Of a DNA stretch of 64,000 nucleotides, positions 2,661-18,269 are shown piece after piece. The position numbers were made by a program, and so were the translations under genes. Source of the stretch: Synechococcus sp. NOUM97013. GTDB lineage: Bacteria > Cyanobacteriota > Cyanobacteriia > PCC-6307 > Cyanobiaceae. Position 1 is the first letter of the stretch, and each line of letters begins with the position of its first letter. Location: contig NZ_CP047941.1 in the NCBI RefSeq assembly GCF_014279815.1, positions 992,001 to 1,056,000 on the forward strand, written 5' to 3'. The notes beneath the pieces were generated by a model. The model was given only the letters and a program-made list of their open reading frames with translations, was not told the origin of the DNA and did no database searches.

Positions 2661-3368
2661 ATGGGGGTTGCCCCCCTTGTTGCGCAGGGCCTGACTGTGG
2701 CCTACGGCGAGCGCACCGTTCTTGATGATGTGTCGCTCACGCTGCAGAGCGGAACGCTGACGGCGCTTGTCGGTGCCAATGGAGCCGGGAAGTCCACCTT
2801 GCTGCACTTGCTGCAGGGGCGTCTCACCCCCACTGCTGGACAGGTCGCCTGCGATGGGATGCCGATTCAGGGGTGCCGCGATCGGGTGGTGTTGATGCCT
2901 CAGCGCGGCCGGATCGACTGGTCGTTTCCCATCACCGTGCGGGAGTTCGTGGCGCTTGGAGCGATGTCGCGTCGATCGTTTGCGTGTTGCGATCGTGATG
3001 CGGCCTTGCAACGGGTCGGCCTTGGGTCCCTGGCCGACCGACGTTTGGATGCACTCTCTGGAGGCCAGCAGCAACGGGCCCTTCTGGCAAGGACGCTCGT
3101 GCAGCCCTCGCGTGTGCTGCTGTTGGATGAACCCTGTGCGGCCATTGATCCGCCAACGCGCGATCAGTTGCTCTCACTGATGCGTCAGCTTGCCGATGCG
3201 GGGCAGACCCTGCTTGTCAGTAGTCATGACTGGGGCACGGCCTTGGATCACTACGACCGGGTGATCGTTCTGGATGGCCGTGTGCTGGCCGATGGTCCCC
3301 CTGAACAAGTGCGCCAGTTGCTGGGCCAGCAGATCAATCCAGGAGCGCAATGCCATGACTGCGCTTGA
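2661..3368 (+). CDS. znuC: zinc ABC transporter ATP-binding protein
   Basis: The 235-residue ATPase has Walker A GANGAGKST (about residues 36-44), the signature LSGGQQQR (about 132-139), Walker B VLLLDEP and a switch His in SSHDWG. It matches the MntB/ZnuC family in length. It overlaps the permease gene by 14 bases, the substrate-binding gene follows, and a Zur-like box sits just upstream. Together these favour zinc over manganese. No good ribosome binding site is visible because the operator occupies the leader. Confidence 0.88.
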   Translation: MGVAPLVAQGLTVAYGERTVLDDVSLTLQSGTLTALVGANGAGKSTLLHLLQGRLTPTAGQVACDGMPIQGCRDRVVLMPQRGRIDWSFPITVREFVALGAMSRRSFACCDRDAALQRVGLGSLADRRLDALSGGQQQRALLARTLVQPSRVLLLDEPCAAIDPPTRDQLLSLMRQLADAGQTLLVSSHDWGTALDHYDRVIVLDGRVLADGPPEQVRQLLGQQINPGAQCHDCA

Positions 3369-4143
3369 TCTCTGGCTGATTCCGTTGCTGATGGCGTTGC
3401 TTGTGGGCATTGTGTGTCCCGTCACTGGCACCTTGCTGGTGACGCAGCGGCGCGTGCTGCAGGCCAATTTGATTTCACACGCTGTTCTTCCTGGTGTGGC
3501 AGTCGCTGTGGCGATGGGAATTGACCCTGCCATTGGCGGAGTGGTCAGTGGTTTGTTGGGCTCCTTGATGTCTGAGCGCATGCAGCGAGCGCAACCGGCT
3601 GGACAGGAAGCCGTGATCAACACCGTGCTTGCCGGTTTCTTGGGCCTTGGGGTGCTGTTGATCCCTTTGCTGGACCTGCGCCTCGATCTCGAAGCTCTGT
3701 TGTTCGGTGATCTGCTGATCGTCGATTGGTACGACTTGGTGCGGGTGTTGGTGGCTGCGGCGGCGTTGCTGCTGCTGCTGCTCACCCGTTACTCCCAGCT
3801 CGTGTTTGTTGGGGTGGATCCCGATGGAGCCGTTGCCGCTGGCTTGCCAGTGAAGACCCTGCAGTTGGTGCAGGCGCTGGTGACCTCCATGGTGATCGTC
3901 AGCGCCATGGCAGCCGTGGGCGTGATTCTCGTGATCGGTCTGCTGTGTGCCCCAGTGCTGCCAGGGCTCTGGCGGGTGAGCAGTCTGCGGGCCGCGATGC
4001 TGCAGTCGGCGTTGGTGGGATTGGCGTTGAGCGCCGTTGGCTTTTTGCTGGCTGTGCCGCTGAATCTGCCTCCAGGGCCTCTGATCGGCGTGGTTTGCAT
4101 GCTGCTGCTGTGCATACCTCGCCTCAGGCCAGCGAATTCGTAG
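3355..4143 (+). CDS. znuB: zinc ABC transporter permease
   Basis: This ABC-3 family permease has about 262 residues and eight or so hydrophobic segments. The N-terminus MTALDLWLIPLLMALLVGIV and the motif LISHAVLPGVAVA are typical of the family. The ATG at 3355 lies inside the end of znuC, which fits coupled translation. An in-frame upstream ATG at 3274 would add a segment lying wholly within znuC and was rejected. It should form the membrane channel for ZnuC and ZnuA. Confidence 0.88.
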   Translation: MTALDLWLIPLLMALLVGIVCPVTGTLLVTQRRVLQANLISHAVLPGVAVAVAMGIDPAIGGVVSGLLGSLMSERMQRAQPAGQEAVINTVLAGFLGLGVLLIPLLDLRLDLEALLFGDLLIVDWYDLVRVLVAAAALLLLLLTRYSQLVFVGVDPDGAVAAGLPVKTLQLVQALVTSMVIVSAMAAVGVILVIGLLCAPVLPGLWRVSSLRAAMLQSALVGLALSAVGFLLAVPLNLPPGPLIGVVCMLLLCIPRLRPANS

Positions 4144-4160
4144 CGTGCTGGACGACGCCG

Positions 4161-4199
4161 TGAGAATGATTATCATTCGTGGAGTGATAATCATTCTCA
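4161..4199. promoter_or_regulatory. paired perfect inverted Zur boxes at znuA
   Basis: TGAGAATGATTATCA (4161-4175) and TGATAATCATTCTCA (4185-4199) are exact reverse complements separated by 9 bases; each is also a near-palindromic Zur/Fur-type box. The second box runs into the ATG at 4199. GATTAT or GATAAT inside the boxes could serve as -10 elements, so bound regulator would block promoter and start region together. The arrangement implies two cooperating dimers. Confidence 0.8.
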
Positions 4200-5092
4200 T
4201 GTCTGTCGCGGTCATCACCTCAGCGGCAGGGGTGCTGCTGGCAGCGGCGACCTCCACCCCCACCATCGTTGCCGCGGATGGCATCCTTTGCGATCTCACC
4301 AAGAAGTTGGTGGCGAACGACGCCAAGGTGATCTGCTTGATCCCCGCCGGCGCGGATCCCCACACCCTGGCCTTGCGTCCGGCAGACCGCACCAGCCTGG
4401 GGAAAGCCAATCTGGTGCTTCTCAACGGTTACAACCTGACGCCGGCATTGAAAGGCGTCAAAGCGGGTGGTCCCGTGGTGTCGTTGGGTGAGATCGCTCT
4501 GCCCAACAATCCTCAGAACGATCCCCACCTGTGGCATGACCCGGCCAACGTCGCGGCGATGGCCAACGTCAGCGTGCTCAAGTTCAAGCCCTTGTTCAGC
4601 GGTCAGCAAATCGCAGCGATTAACCAGCGGCGTACGGCCATGGCTGGGGTGTTGAACTCTCTGGGGAGTTGGACGGCCCAACAGGTCGCAACGGTTCCCG
4701 AGCCCCAGAGGGTTCTGGTGACGGGGCACCGTGCCTATTCGTTTCTCTCGAAACGCTATGGCATTCGTGAGCTGCCAGTGATCGATGAGTACGCCACAGG
4801 CGGGCGCATGCGCCCCTCCAGCTTGAACGCCATCAGCAAAGCGATTAAAGCTTCGGGAACCAAGGTGATTTTTCCGGAATCCCTACCTCCTTCGAAAACC
4901 ATGCGGCGCATCAGTCGTGCCAGCGGCATTCCCTTGGCGAGCAAAGCGTTGGTGGCTGACGGCCTGGCCCCTGGCAAAAGCCTGATCCAAACGGCAACCA
5001 GCAATGTCTGCACCTTCGTGGTGGCTCAGGGAGGACGCTGTGACCAGCAAGCTGCAGCGCAGCTTCAACAGCGCTGGTCTGCGATTCGCTGA
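4199..5092 (+). CDS. znuA: zinc ABC transporter substrate-binding protein
   Basis: This cluster A-I metal-binding protein carries the three expected His ligands in ADPHTLAL, NDPHLWHD and VTGHRAYSF, plus the C-terminal FPESLPPSKTMRRI region. It lacks the His-rich loop found in many ZnuA proteins. A signal peptide precedes about residue 28. The start is uncertain. ATG 4199 abuts the second operator and gives a signal peptide without a basic residue. ATG 4166 or GTG 4145 would add an Arg but put the operators inside the coding region. It should deliver zinc to ZnuBC. Confidence 0.85.
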   Translation: MSVAVITSAAGVLLAAATSTPTIVAADGILCDLTKKLVANDAKVICLIPAGADPHTLALRPADRTSLGKANLVLLNGYNLTPALKGVKAGGPVVSLGEIALPNNPQNDPHLWHDPANVAAMANVSVLKFKPLFSGQQIAAINQRRTAMAGVLNSLGSWTAQQVATVPEPQRVLVTGHRAYSFLSKRYGIRELPVIDEYATGGRMRPSSLNAISKAIKASGTKVIFPESLPPSKTMRRISRASGIPLASKALVADGLAPGKSLIQTATSNVCTFVVAQGGRCDQQAAAQLQQRWSAIR

Positions 5093-5136
5093 CTAAAGAG
5101 CACTTTTAAACCCACCACTTCTCCCCCTCTTTTGTG

Positions 5137-6297
5137 ATGAACAGCTTCAAGTTCAAGTTGCTGAAAGCTGCCTCTTTTTTGGCCCTGCTTGCAGCCGGAG
5201 ATTCAGCTCTCCAGCAGGTTCGTGCTCATGGTTCCGCCGGCGGCGAAGAGCCTTTGCCTCCCGGAGAGTTTCGTGCCATTCCTGTGATGACGATCGAGGG
5301 GCATGGAGGTTTTGAGAACAATCTGGAGGGGCACCCTGAGCATTACGCCATCGATGGGCAATTCGGTGTTGTTTTGGAGTGGGGGCTTCCCAATGAGGGA
5401 AGTTTCGCCATTGAAGCGTCTCTTGGCCCTGCGCTTGTCTGGGGAGAAGCGGAACATTTCTATGGCCGTGTTCACGTGGAGTCCGGCGATCACGATGCTC
5501 ACGAAGGCAGTGATGAACACGAAGGCCACGATGATCACGAGGAGCATGAGGAACATGCGGGCGATCATGGCGACCACGACGATCACGACGAGCATGAAGA
5601 CCATGCGGAAGAACATGGTGATCACGAAGGCCACGAGGATCACGACGAGCATGAAGATCATGCGGAAGAGCATGATGATCACGAGGATCACGACGATGGC
5701 CATGACGACCACGCGGGTCATGCAGGCCATGGCCATGGATCAGGGGCTCCATTCCGTCGCACGGACATCAAGGGGTATCTCCAAGCCCGATACCAACCCA
5801 ACGACCGCTTGGAGTTATCCCTCGCCTGGATGCCTTACTACGTCACTGGCGAAGGCGAGGATTTCGGCACTGGTCTGAAAAATGAGGTGGGTGCCAAGGT
5901 GGTCTACGCCTTTGGCGATGGCGATGTGAATTTCGCTCTGGGTGATGGTCTTCAGGATGTGATTGACGGTGTTTTTGTGTCGGTTGAAAACCGCACGGGC
6001 TGGGAATCGGATGGCACCTACATCGGGAACTACACCGACCTGTGGCCTGGATTTGGTTTCAACATCGACCTTCTGAACATCACCCTGTCCGGTGGTCCTC
6101 GCTTCTACATGCCTGGTGATTATTCAGGATTGTCTCAGCGCACTGACTGGGGTGGTGAGATTGAGTTGGAATATCCAGTGGCTGAAAATGTTGTTCTCTT
6201 CGCTCATTGGGAACCCGTTTACAGCACTGAGGGTGGTTCAGGATGGGGCGTTGGCTTCCAGCATCATGTGGGTACAGGCGTCACGATTGCATTCTGA
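5137..6297 (+). CDS. histidine-rich outer-membrane beta-barrel protein
   Basis: The 386-residue protein has a signal peptide (about 1-30), alternating beta-strand segments and a terminal Phe (VTIAF), all as in outer-membrane barrels. Between about residues 119 and 200 lies an extraordinary loop of His, Asp and Glu, with more than 25 His. It follows znuA by 44 bases, so co-transcription and zinc control are likely. Inference: an outer-membrane zinc binder or channel whose loop concentrates metal at the surface. It is not a TonB receptor, since no plug domain is seen. GTG 5134 is an alternative start. Confidence 0.75.
   Translation: MNSFKFKLLKAASFLALLAAGDSALQQVRAHGSAGGEEPLPPGEFRAIPVMTIEGHGGFENNLEGHPEHYAIDGQFGVVLEWGLPNEGSFAIEASLGPALVWGEAEHFYGRVHVESGDHDAHEGSDEHEGHDDHEEHEEHAGDHGDHDDHDEHEDHAEEHGDHEGHEDHDEHEDHAEEHDDHEDHDDGHDDHAGHAGHGHGSGAPFRRTDIKGYLQARYQPNDRLELSLAWMPYYVTGEGEDFGTGLKNEVGAKVVYAFGDGDVNFALGDGLQDVIDGVFVSVENRTGWESDGTYIGNYTDLWPGFGFNIDLLNITLSGGPRFYMPGDYSGLSQRTDWGGEIELEYPVAENVVLFAHWEPVYSTEGGSGWGVGFQHHVGTGVTIAF
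5581..5690 (+). repeat. 57-bp imperfect tandem repeat in His-rich loop
   Basis: Two copies of a unit beginning GATCACGACGAGCATGAAGA (5581 and 5638) encode HDEHEDHAEEH-type peptide. The unit length is 57 bases, so copy number changes keep the frame and would lengthen or shorten the metal-binding loop. Confidence 0.75.
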
Positions 6298-12303: not shown

Positions 12304-12963
12304 TCACCTGTTGATCATGTCTTCCAGGTTTTGCATGAGTGGGTTGCTGTTGGTCCAAGCCTGATTGGGTTCGCAGCAAAGGCAGGATTCACCTTCATCG
12401 CAGCCGACCGAAGCACGTTGTTCCGCATCCAGTTTCAGAAGCTCTTTGGTGTATGGCGCCCTGAGGTCCCATTCGCTCCAGGTTTTGACACCTTGCTCAT
12501 CCACATCTTCTGGGAAAGCAATTTGAAGGTGAAGCCAGCGTTTCTGGCTGACTGGTTTGAAACTTACAAGCCAGTCTTGATCTGGATCTGATCCCTGGCC
12601 TCTGGCGGCATTCAACATCGCATCCATGGCGTGTTGCGCCCCTGGTTCGCGTCTTTCGCGCCACTGGCGCAGCGGTTTGATGCAGGCATCGTCGGCCGCG
12701 ACCCCTACGCGTAAGAGACCATTGGATCTGTCGGCAATTTCTTGTTCAGAGGCCATCGTCCTGCGGATGCCGTTGGCATCGGCCCAGCTGGGATAGGCCA
12801 TTGGTTCATAGAACTCTGCCTTGGTGAACCAGACCACCGGTTGCGTTCGCGGATCCAAACCGATGCACAATGGCTTGAGCGCGCGTGTCTTGATTAAGGG
12901 AAGTAATCGAGTGGCCGTTGTGTAGTGCCAGGCAATCTCAATCTTGCGGCCAAATCCTTTCAT
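12304..12963 (-). CDS. unknown protein behind a Zur/Fur-like box
   Basis: The 219-residue soluble protein opens with a beta strand and IAWHYTTATRLLPLIKTRALKP, followed by VVWFTKAEFYEP. This HYT-then-WF(S/T) layout recalls small ADP-ribosyltransferase-like folds, but that is a loose resemblance. The C-terminus has a Cys cluster (VGCDEGESCLCCEP) that might bind metal. A Zur/Fur-like palindrome lies about 40 bases upstream of its ATG, which suggests metal control together with bmtA on the other side. Confidence 0.6.
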   Translation of the reverse strand: MKGFGRKIEIAWHYTTATRLLPLIKTRALKPLCIGLDPRTQPVVWFTKAEFYEPMAYPSWADANGIRRTMASEQEIADRSNGLLRVGVAADDACIKPLRQWRERREPGAQHAMDAMLNAARGQGSDPDQDWLVSFKPVSQKRWLHLQIAFPEDVDEQGVKTWSEWDLRAPYTKELLKLDAEQRASVGCDEGESCLCCEPNQAWTNSNPLMQNLEDMINR

Positions 12964-13002: not shown

Positions 13003-13017
13003 TGAGAATCATTCTCG
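13003..13017. promoter_or_regulatory. Zur/Fur-like box, minus-strand gene side
   Basis: TGAGAATCATTCTCG is an almost perfect palindrome of the same type as at znuA. It is 40-54 bases upstream of the minus-strand gene start at 12963, a position compatible with direct repression. Confidence 0.7.
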
Positions 13018-13070: not shown

Positions 13071-13085
13071 TGAGAATGATTCTCG
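13071..13085. promoter_or_regulatory. Zur/Fur-like box, bmtA side
   Basis: TGAGAATGATTCTCG lies 80-95 bases before the bmtA ATG. It sits upstream of a plausible promoter rather than over it. For Synechococcus WH8102, Zur has been reported, as I recall, to activate its metallothionein gene; the geometry here fits an activator site. Confidence 0.7.
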
Positions 13086-15823: not shown

Positions 15824-15949
15824 GTGATCTCTAAGAGCCCTCGCAGAGTTCGACGGCGTCTAGATCCTCATCTTGCCTTGGCTGCTCTGACTCTGGGCAT
15901 GGGCTGCGGAATTCTCCGTTTGGCTCAACCAAACCCTCGACCGCTTTGA
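15824..15949 (+). CDS. possible 41-residue single-TM protein
   Basis: From GTG 15824 the frame encodes a strongly basic N-terminus (SKSPRRVRRRLDP) and one hydrophobic helix (LALAALTLGMGCGILRL). The pattern looks like a genuine small membrane protein. It overlaps the end of the convergent phosphoesterase gene by 25 bases. The ribosome binding site is weak, so this is tentative. Confidence 0.4.
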   Translation: MISKSPRRVRRRLDPHLALAALTLGMGCGILRLAQPNPRPL

Positions 15950-16635
15950 GCGCGACTCGGGTCGACATTCAGGAACGCGAGGTGATCTGTGGCTGGGTCA
16001 TAGAGGGTGTAGTGATCGCCTCCTCCAATGCCGATCACGCTGCGCTTGGGCACGGCCTGTTCGGCTTTGTGCTCACCGCTGTGATCGGTCACCTTGGATT
16101 GAATCTGACCGCCGGTCAGCTCCAGCCGGAATTGACGACCGCTGCGGGCTGTGAATAGACGGTTGACGTCGAGACGTGTGAGCCGATCCATCAGGATCAG
16201 CGGTGAAGTGGCTTCCGTCAGGCGATCAGCCACATCGGCTGAGCTGCCATGGATGAGCGCGCAGTCGAGTTCGATGAATCCGAATTGCAGTGATGCCAGC
16301 CAATCGAGATGGTCGGGATCCACGGCTGCCAACAAGTTGGACACGGAAGCCTCACCTTCTTGTTGTTTCAAGTCATCCGCCTTGCGCTCACCGCGGTAAC
16401 CGCACTCGGCCAACAATTGGTCGTCTCTCCAGCCGTAGATGCAGTCCGGCGCAAGATCACTTGGCCTGGGTCGCCTCAACCGCTCCAGCAAACCGTTGCA
16501 AGACGGGTGGGCTCCCACCAGGTCACCCAACACAAACAAGCTGGCGACGCCACGCTGACGTTTGAGGTCGCGTTGGATCCGCTCATACAGATCAAGGTCT
16601 CCGTTCAGACCACTCACCAGTGCCCAGCGTTCCAT
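15925..16635 (-). CDS. degenerate metallophosphoesterase-like protein
   Basis: This 236-residue protein follows the fold order of the neighbouring phosphoesterase but has lost most metal ligands. The first DXH is replaced by LNGD, GDLVG is kept, the GNHD block reads GWRDD, one HG motif (LIHGSS) remains, and GHTH is absent. It is probably a non-catalytic paralogue or partner. Its ATG shares one base with the preceding stop, so it is co-translated as the third gene of the Zur-box operon. Confidence 0.65.
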   Translation of the reverse strand: MERWALVSGLNGDLDLYERIQRDLKRQRGVASLFVLGDLVGAHPSCNGLLERLRRPRPSDLAPDCIYGWRDDQLLAECGYRGERKADDLKQQEGEASVSNLLAAVDPDHLDWLASLQFGFIELDCALIHGSSADVADRLTEATSPLILMDRLTRLDVNRLFTARSGRQFRLELTGGQIQSKVTDHSGEHKAEQAVPKRSVIGIGGGDHYTLYDPATDHLAFLNVDPSRAQSGRGFG

Positions 16636-17453
16636 CAGCGCTCACACACGTGGCTGGCATCATCGGCTCGTTCGGCATATTCAAAGCCGTGGCTGAGCCT
16701 CCAGGCAAAGACCTCTGGTAGGCCTGCATCGACGATGGCGCGGCATGTTTTGGCGACGTCGTACGCCACTTCGCGGATGCTGACTTCTCCTGTGGTGTCG
16801 TTGTGAATCACATAGGTGGCTTTGGTGCTTCCATGACGTGGTTCACCGACGGAACCTGCATTGACGATGCGGCGCATTGGCAATGTGAGTTCCTCATCCC
16901 TGACTGGTTGGTTCTCGTTTCCTTGCTGGACTCTGACGCGGATGCTGCCGCCACTGAGCTCTCGCACGTAGGGCTGATGGGTGTGCCCGCAAAACAGGGT
17001 TTCCGCTCCTGCTGTTTCCACGCGTTCCAGCGCGGCGAACGCATTCATGTCAGGCAGCAGGTATTCATGCTGGCTGTTGGGACTGCCATGAACAAACAGT
17101 GATGCTCCTCTGCGCAGCGTCATGGGTAGCTCGGCCAGAAAAGCCTTGTTGGATTCCGTCAGGGTTGCGGCTGTCCAGTGATGCGCTCGGTGACCGCGGC
17201 GTTCCGCCAATTGGGAGGGATAGCTGCATTCGCAGGCGTTTAAGCCATCGATGATGTCTTCGTCCCAACAGCCTTGGCAGGACGCAATTCCCCGCTCTCT
17301 CACGAGCTCCACCACTTCGTTGGGCTGTGGCCCGTAGCCGACCAGATCGCCCAGGCAAGTAATGGTTTGAATTCCTTGAGAGTCGATGTCTGCGAGCACC
17401 GCCTCAAGAGCCGCCAGGTTTGCGTGTAAGCAGGAGATCACTGCTTGGTTCAT
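16635..17453 (-). CDS. metallophosphoesterase with Cys at metal site
   Basis: The 272-residue calcineurin-like protein has recognisable motif blocks: SCLHAN (residues 7-12), GDLVGYGP (35-42), GCWDED (61-66), VHGSP (121-125) and GHTHQPY (156-162). In relatives the first and third blocks read SDXHGN and GN(H/W)D, so Asp8 and Asn62 are both Cys here while the remaining His and Asp ligands are kept. This suggests an altered metal preference, perhaps zinc. It lies 6 bases after the CobW-like gene in the same operon. The substrate is unknown. Confidence 0.8.
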   Translation of the reverse strand: MNQAVISCLHANLAALEAVLADIDSQGIQTITCLGDLVGYGPQPNEVVELVRERGIASCQGCWDEDIIDGLNACECSYPSQLAERRGHRAHHWTAATLTESNKAFLAELPMTLRRGASLFVHGSPNSQHEYLLPDMNAFAALERVETAGAETLFCGHTHQPYVRELSGGSIRVRVQQGNENQPVRDEELTLPMRRIVNAGSVGEPRHGSTKATYVIHNDTTGEVSIREVAYDVAKTCRAIVDAGLPEVFAWRLSHGFEYAERADDASHVCER

Positions 17454-17459
17454 GGTGAA

Positions 17460-18233
17460 TCAGCCTTGGGTTGAGGGTTCGGGGAGTTGGTGTTGCTGCA
17501 TGGCCAGCACGTCATCGCTGAGCAAACAGTCGTCAATCGTGGATTGGATTCCACCTGGATCAAGCGCTTTGCCCTGGACGACCAAGGCAGAGGGGCGCTC
17601 TGGTCGTCCTGAGGCAGGAGCGACGCTGTTCAAGGGCAGAAACTGTGACTCCTGCTGGCTAACCATCCAGTTGCAGAAAAACGCTCGACCATCCGGAAGA
17701 TTCATCAAGCCCTTGGCGCGATACACATCGCCGTAGGCCCCATTGACGAGCTCAAACCAGAAACTGCTGAGGCTGTTGGGATCCCAGACGATGCGCTCAA
17801 GGTTGACGTGCCAAGCCTCGAGTTTGGAGAACTCCAGAGTGTCGTGAGTGGGCAACACTGAATCCCGGCCGAAGTGCAAGATCTGATCCGGTTGCAGGTT
17901 GAGTGCATCCAATCGCTCACGGATGCTGGCTGAGAAGCCATCCAGGTCATGCGTTTCTGGAGCGCGAAACTGTTGGACCTCGATCAAGGTGAGTGGGGCC
18001 TCAGGGTGGAGCGCCTCTCCGGCTGGAGATGGCTTTAGCGCAATCAGTTCAGGGATCTGATCCTTGAGCCAAGCCAGATCGATCCCGCCATCGACACCTT
18101 GTTCCAGACCCTCAAGACGATCTCCCTCCAGGCGCAGGAAAGCGCAAGCTCCCTGGTGCTGTTTCAAGGTTTCAAGCACCCATGTGGTTTTGCCGCATCC
18201 GGGAGGACCTGAAACCAGGCACACCTGACCCAT
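17460..18233 (-). CDS. CobW-like P-loop protein, Zur-box controlled
   Basis: The 257-residue protein has Walker A GPPGCGKTT (residues 9-17). Its C-terminal region, YGDVYRAKGLMNLPDGRAFF, resembles the CobW C-terminal domain. The CXCC metal-binding motif of standard COG0523 GTPases is missing, so it is a divergent member. Related proteins act as metallochaperones, and several are induced under zinc shortage. A Zur-like box ends 22 bases upstream of its ATG. It heads an operon with two phosphoesterase-like genes. Confidence 0.7.
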   Translation of the reverse strand: MGQVCLVSGPPGCGKTTWVLETLKQHQGACAFLRLEGDRLEGLEQGVDGGIDLAWLKDQIPELIALKPSPAGEALHPEAPLTLIEVQQFRAPETHDLDGFSASIRERLDALNLQPDQILHFGRDSVLPTHDTLEFSKLEAWHVNLERIVWDPNSLSSFWFELVNGAYGDVYRAKGLMNLPDGRAFFCNWMVSQQESQFLPLNSVAPASGRPERPSALVVQGKALDPGGIQSTIDDCLLSDDVLAMQQHQLPEPSTQG

Positions 18234-18254: not shown

Positions 18255-18269
18255 TGGGAATCATTCTCA
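18255..18269. promoter_or_regulatory. Zur/Fur-like box before CobW-like operon
   Basis: TGGGAATCATTCTCA matches the other boxes of the window closely (compare 2640 and 13003). It lies immediately upstream of the minus-strand operon start at 18233, where it would cover the promoter. Confidence 0.7.

Follow-up and report, generated by a model that had tools for sequence, protein, structure and literature searches.

A Zur-linked three-gene cassette of cyanobacteria encodes a metallophosphoesterase with cysteines at two metal-ligand positions

Among the metal ligands of the calcineurin fold are an aspartate in the D-x-H motif and an asparagine in the GN motif, and both are present in the metallophosphoesterase of Sphaerobacter (3RQZ) and in SapH (Spr1479; 3QFM, 3QFN), an asymmetric Ap4A hydrolase, while the ligand motifs of the archaeal Pyrococcus proteins PH1004 and Pfu-1218608 (2GJU, 1NNW) are degenerate in the alignment. 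The accessible part of one recent report describes Car1 of Rufibacter tibetensis, a protein of the same fold family, as an arsenate reductase in which Cys74 and Cys76 are essential, and cites a paper in which it is regarded as a metallophosphoesterase that has evolved into a redox catalyst (PMC12124457). Two systems of zinc homeostasis are also close to the locus described here: the cyanobacterial Zur regulon, with znuABC, folE2, hemB2, thrS2 and COG0523 genes, and the COG0523/CobW metal chaperones, of which COG0523 is defined, according to the accessible part of its description, by a CXCC motif present in all members (PMC2770081).

Within the window, which is the whole stretch of 64,000 nucleotides of Synechococcus sp. 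NOUM97013 that was analysed, three genes on the minus strand form a cassette, with a P-loop gene upstream, the gene of a metallophosphoesterase (MPE1) in the middle and that of a second, related protein (MPE2) downstream (Table 1); the plus strand opposite MPE1 is closed by stops. The arrangement is highly conserved, the P-loop gene being directly upstream of MPE1 in 169 of 171 distinct loci and MPE2 being at most 400 bp downstream in 160, farther downstream in seven and not found within the locus stretch in four. In three Cyanobiaceae loci MPE2 follows MPE1 only after 5-7 kb, which gives the impression of an insertion between the two. An earlier note on this DNA mentioned neither the conserved cassette nor the metal-less paralogue directly downstream of MPE1. 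No description of this Zur-linked cassette came up in the literature searched, and the accessible parts of the published accounts of the Zur regulon do not name MPE1 or MPE2 among its members.

Table 1. Positions in the window of the cassette, its functional motifs and the associated Zur-type boxes
Feature	Positions	Strand	Remarks
Zur-type box TGAGAATGATTCCCA	18255..18269	-	about 36 bp upstream of the cassette
P-loop NTPase-like protein, CobW_C domain, no CXCC	17460..18233	-	257 residues; CobW_C Pfam E 9.2e-6
MPE1	16635..17453	-	272-aa metallophosphoesterase, Cys8 and Cys62 at metal-ligand positions (translation, Metallophos_2, orthologues, AF2)
Codon of Cys8	17430..17432	-	Asp position of D-x-H; invariant (170/170)
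Codon of Cys62	17268..17270	-	Asn position of GNHD; invariant (170/170)
C74-x-C76, codons 74-76	17226..17234	-	170/170; in common with Car1-type ars-operon phosphoesterases
H-x-C of the C-terminal tail, codons 268-270	16644..16652	-	invariant (170/170); ars-type relatives lack the tail
MPE2	15925..16635	-	236-aa metal-less paralogue (predicted pseudoenzyme); overlaps the MPE1 stop by one base
Twin perfect Zur-type boxes, znuB/znuA junction	4161..4199	.	box scan; Pfam matches of znuA, znuB and znuC

MPE1 matches Metallophos_2 in a Pfam scan (E 1.6e-20, 74.1 bits against a cut-off of 27), and the best PDB match of its AlphaFold2 model (pLDDT 83.3) is 3RQZ (Z 26.5, rmsd 2.1 over 206 residues, 38% identity), followed by PH1004, Pfu-1218608 and then SapH (Z 24.9). 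In both profile and single-sequence alignments with 3RQZ and SapH (3QFM), Cys8 is opposite the D-x-H aspartate and Cys62 opposite the asparagine of GN(H/W)D/E. The earlier note had claimed that the two cysteines occupy metal-ligand positions and had set a homologue alignment beforehand as the check; the alignment with these solved relatives bears the claim out. Asp36, His122, His157 and His159 are retained, as had also been stated, and so is the previously unmentioned His10, so that MPE1 keeps five of the seven residues of the Asp-His-Asp-Asn-His-His-His ligand set. Although 3RQZ is the closest solved structure, it has the Asp/Asn pair, no CxC and a chain that stops short of the cysteine tail of MPE1, while SapH, which shares the fold, has Asp and Asn at the two sites and lacks the CxC in the alignment. 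Trp63 of MPE1, which replaces the His of GNHD, is not unusual among such proteins, because SapH also has Trp at this position and six ars-operon relatives have Tyr. The pLDDT falls below 50 at residues 66-74 and 262-272 of the model, and the C74-x-C76 loop and the H-x-C tail lie in or next to these low-confidence, probably mobile segments.

Cys8 and Cys62 are found in all 170 distinct full-length cyanobacterial orthologues, a set from which the length filter left out three broken or partial copies, and this constancy leads us to reject a sequencing error. Also invariant in the same 170 proteins are C74, C76, C155, C237, H91, H207, H268 and C270. Cys59 was considered as a ligand and rejected, being present in just 148 of the 170, and C33 and C155 were rejected as part of the change, both being found in Asp/Asn relatives too. 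In a collection of 238 loci, which overlap between searches, the Cys/Cys pair accompanies at least 50% identity and two readable sites in 216 cases, with two more sequences stopping short of the sites, while every relative below 50% identity with two scorable sites has Asp/Asn (16/16); among the remaining relatives below this level one has Asp8 with a gap at position 62 and one is unreadable, and two loci gave no match. Seven further distant relatives also have Asp/Asn. It is unusual for a binuclear phosphoesterase centre to have exchanged both Asp and Asn for Cys and for this exchange to be fixed in each of the orthologues examined; the literature searched, which included few subscription papers, yielded no account of cysteine ligands in a protein of this kind, or of MPE1.

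The protein most likely binds metal, since metal-capable residues occupy every ligand position, whereas those of MPE2 are mostly lost; moreover, all seven positions are metal-capable in 170 of 170 orthologues, which would be unexpected after metal loss. Sites composed of Cys, His and Asp would favour zinc. The reading that we tentatively prefer, while giving it somewhat less than an even chance, is that MPE1 is a soft-ligand (zinc-type) phosphoesterase of a redox lineage which, together with two partners, takes part in zinc handling during the low-zinc response.

A serious, albeit rather unlikely, alternative is that MPE1 is a thiol reductase of the Car1 type, in which the metal site places an oxyanion or disulfide substrate, C74 and C76 reduce it, Cys8 and Cys62 are extra redox or metal-thiolate groups and zinc control merely times expression. 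The closest non-cyanobacterial relatives among those fetched are indeed located in ars operons of three phyla, and include six CxC-containing phosphoesterases of the Car1 type from Bacteroidota, Actinomycetota and Bacillota. The C74-x-C76 motif, invariant in MPE1, is found in all six of the first copies in these operons; in a relative from Adhaeribacter with 38% identity to MPE1 it has the same residue numbers, and these are also the numbers of the two essential cysteines in the accessible description of Car1 (PMC12124457). The CxC is absent from a second Pedobacter copy, an Azospirillum relative and a phage relative; the second Pedobacter copy stands in tandem, reminiscent of the MPE1-MPE2 pair. 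On the other hand, the ars-type proteins differ from MPE1 in keeping Asp8 and Asn62 and in lacking the C-terminal H-x-C tail. The annotated cyanobacterial loci examined are zinc loci and not ars operons, with zinc-gene neighbours in four annotated records. Furthermore, the ars-type proteins form neither a sister group nor a clade with MPE1 in a tree of 41 rows, and for this reason common descent and parallel gain of the C74-x-C76 pair are both possible.

Zinc handling agrees with the setting of the cassette in the genome. The sequence TGANAATNATTNTCA, which we take to be the Zur consensus, was used to score boxes in a region reaching from 250 bp upstream of the P-loop gene to 30 bp into it, with the expectation drawn from windows of the same locus. 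Outside Cyanobiaceae, at least 11 of the 12 consensus positions were matched in 30 of 64 regions, 14 of these perfectly, where 1.2 were expected; within Cyanobiaceae, at least 10 of 12 were matched in 86 of 114 regions, where 5.3 were expected. The Zur-like box that the earlier note had placed ahead of the operon is thus confirmed, both at this locus and by the enrichment of such boxes across cassette loci. One group of freshwater Cyanobium-type loci has no Zur-type box within 250 bp. A sigma-70-like promoter was sought around the box and rejected, as none was found. The genome to which the window belongs has 14 sites with at most one mismatch to the consensus, five of them in the window, including two at znuB/znuA. 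The znuC-znuB-znuA set extends over 2661-5092 and is accompanied by a Zur-like box (2640-2654); the part of the genome around it is a zinc island. Directly after znuA, at 5134-6297, a secreted-looking protein of 387 residues, which is rich in His, Asp and Glu over a long stretch and matches no Pfam family, is possibly a zinc-scavenging surface protein; a 219-residue protein encoded on the minus strand at 12304-12963, also without a Pfam match, has upstream boxes at 13003-13017 and 13071-13085 with one mismatch each.

The neighbourhood of the cassette in other cyanobacteria shares genes with the Zur regulon, in addition to the Zur-type box itself. In the Trichormus variabilis ATCC 29413 record the cassette is accompanied by hemB, thrS, hisI, a COG0523-type gene and a zinc ABC transporter gene, in that of a Dolichospermum by thrS, folE and GTP-binding proteins, and in those of Picosynechococcus PCC 7117 and NIES-970 by folE and hemB. 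A match to folE, hemB, thrS, hisI, COG0523, znuA or znuB was found within about 6 kb at 26 of 40 loci outside Cyanobiaceae, and matches to COG0523 or znuA/B, at six of 19 loci, are rarer within the family; both are raw counts without a null and some of the znuA matches are weak. Deletion of zur in PCC 7002 upregulated hemB-II, folE-II, G0131 and G0132 and left G0129 ('phosphoesterase') and G0130 unchanged, as far as the accessible part of the transcriptome study goes (PMC4628125). By the gene order of plasmid pAQ7, SYNPCC7002_G0131 is the first gene of the cassette, in truncated form; in this stretch (positions 3125-4896 of the locus) MPE1 is missing, with an unrelated frame in its place, and MPE2 is reduced to a C-terminal remnant. 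Unlike PCC 7002, strains PCC 7117 and 73109 have the whole cassette. In its accessible part the transcriptome supports Zur control of the cassette promoter, but it says nothing on MPE1, because MPE1 is absent from that strain. The three-gene cassette seems to be induced by zinc shortage.

The same setting would also suit a zinc-starvation phosphoesterase, in which a tighter thiolate site or another metal allows MPE1 to replace an ordinary enzyme, as with folE2, hemB2 and thrS2. All of the metal positions are kept, Trp63 is compatible with catalysis, given that SapH, described as an Ap4A hydrolase, also has Trp, and the neighbours of the cassette are zinc-sparing paralogues. However, no ordinary close paralogue that could be replaced was found in the window genome, whose sole other Metallophos_2 match is distant, and such a role leaves the invariant CxC, the H-x-C of the tail and the constant pseudoenzyme partner unaccounted for; we consider it unlikely.

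That partner, MPE2, has no Pfam match and only 26% identity to MPE1 (E 8.7e-7), although the relationship is clear from profile-profile comparison (probability 99.9). Its AlphaFold2 model (pLDDT 90.7) has the fold of MPE1, with 2gju as the top match (Z 21.4), and the Pyrococcus proteins share its degenerate ligand motifs but are archaeal and have 13% identity to it. At the ligand columns of MPE1 it has Gly8 in 162 of 163 sequences, Trp62 in 157, Arg157 in 154 and His159 in one, keeping Asp36 in 162 and His122 in all 163; judged from these columns, MPE2 has lost most of the metal ligands. The first protein of the cassette resembles the COG0523/CobW chaperones in having a P-loop, found in 173 of 176 family members, and a CobW_C domain, above the Pfam cut-off in the four cassette proteins scanned. 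In contrast to them, its cobW nucleotide-binding domain is below the cut-off or absent from the matches, and CXCC is found in none of the 176. Since the motif is reported for all members of COG0523 in the accessible part of PMC2770081, the protein would be classed as COG0523-like and not as a COG0523 member, and a metal-chaperone role is for this reason a guess. Both flanking genes evolve faster than MPE1 and yet are constrained too when compared with the relative L091 (dN/dS values 0.069/0.39 for MPE2 and 0.087/0.36 for the P-loop gene).

For MPE1 itself, comparison with L091, its nearest relative, gave a dN of 0.033 and a dS of 0.49; the ratio of about 0.07, used alone because dS against a second relative (L092) was near saturation, points to strong purifying selection. 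Loss of function in a decaying gene, to which the change of two catalytic-site residues might have pointed, is refuted by the identity of both sites in 170 of 170 orthologues, by these rates and by the retention of the cassette across families, and is very improbable. The gene is patchy across Cyanobiaceae, where 107 of 300 genomes gave a match with E no higher than 1e-5 and 105 of them, once two weak matches are left out, have an orthologue. A search of the phylum at 1e-10 gave matches in 260 of 386 genomes; they were strong in 66 genomes that belong to the same class but not to Cyanobiaceae, three of these having broken copies, and the other distant matches were much weaker. Contigs of metagenome-assembled genomes titled Spirochaeta and Blastopirellula (three in all) carry MPE1 at 83-85% identity and are probably mis-binned cyanobacterial contigs. 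Phage origin or carriage was rejected, as a tblastn scan of viral contigs found no MPE1 relative and a phage collection gave a single distant match.

In the 41-row tree, in which the ligand columns were kept and the outgroup branches are long, the 24 MPE1 sequences included are separated from all other rows by a branch supported at 100/96; an earlier 60-row tree that included MPE2 gave a support of 70. As the orthologues form one clade, a single origin is the simplest explanation for the Cys8/Cys62 pair. The earlier note had favoured adaptation over decay, and with decay excluded this holds in part; an adaptation restricted to picocyanobacteria is rejected, because orthologues from many cyanobacterial families share Cys/Cys, which argues for an old feature of the lineage and not for a local adaptation. 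Its suggestion of zinc or redox control finds a zinc link in the Zur-type boxes and zinc genes and a redox argument in a C74-x-C76 like that of Car1, as the latter is described in the accessible part of its report; the sequence does not decide between the two.

Zinc handling is favoured over both the Car1-type reductase and the zinc-sparing phosphoesterase. According to this preferred reading, MPE1 would be a relative of the Car1-like redox metallophosphoesterases with a binuclear centre rebuilt with soft ligands, metal one being bound by Cys8, His10, Asp36 and His159 and metal two by Asp36, Cys62, His122 and His157. This zinc-preferring centre would lie beside the C74-x-C76 dithiol on a mobile loop. 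Zinc-loaded Zur would repress the cassette, which would be made when zinc is short; MPE1 would then pair with its metal-less paralogue MPE2, and the CobW_C-type P-loop protein might drive metal loading or transfer. Together, the three proteins may bind zinc when it is scarce, release it or shift it elsewhere, perhaps by redox reactions of thiols, and MPE1 itself could either pass on its zinc or work as a thiol-based redox enzyme. A bolder version, which we think decidedly unlikely, takes the cassette to be an undescribed zinc-mobilizing machine gated by MPE2 and powered by the CXCC-less NTPase, in which a metal-thiolate redox centre of Cys8, Cys62 and C74-x-C76, with H268-x-C270 of the tail as further ligands, would take up and release zinc through oxidation and reduction of its thiols.

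A role of MPE1 in zinc handling would connect a recently reported redox branch of the metallophosphoesterases with zinc starvation in the dominant primary producers of the ocean. With an active-looking member, a putative pseudoenzyme and an NTPase, the cassette provides a compact module for asking how cells move very scarce zinc.
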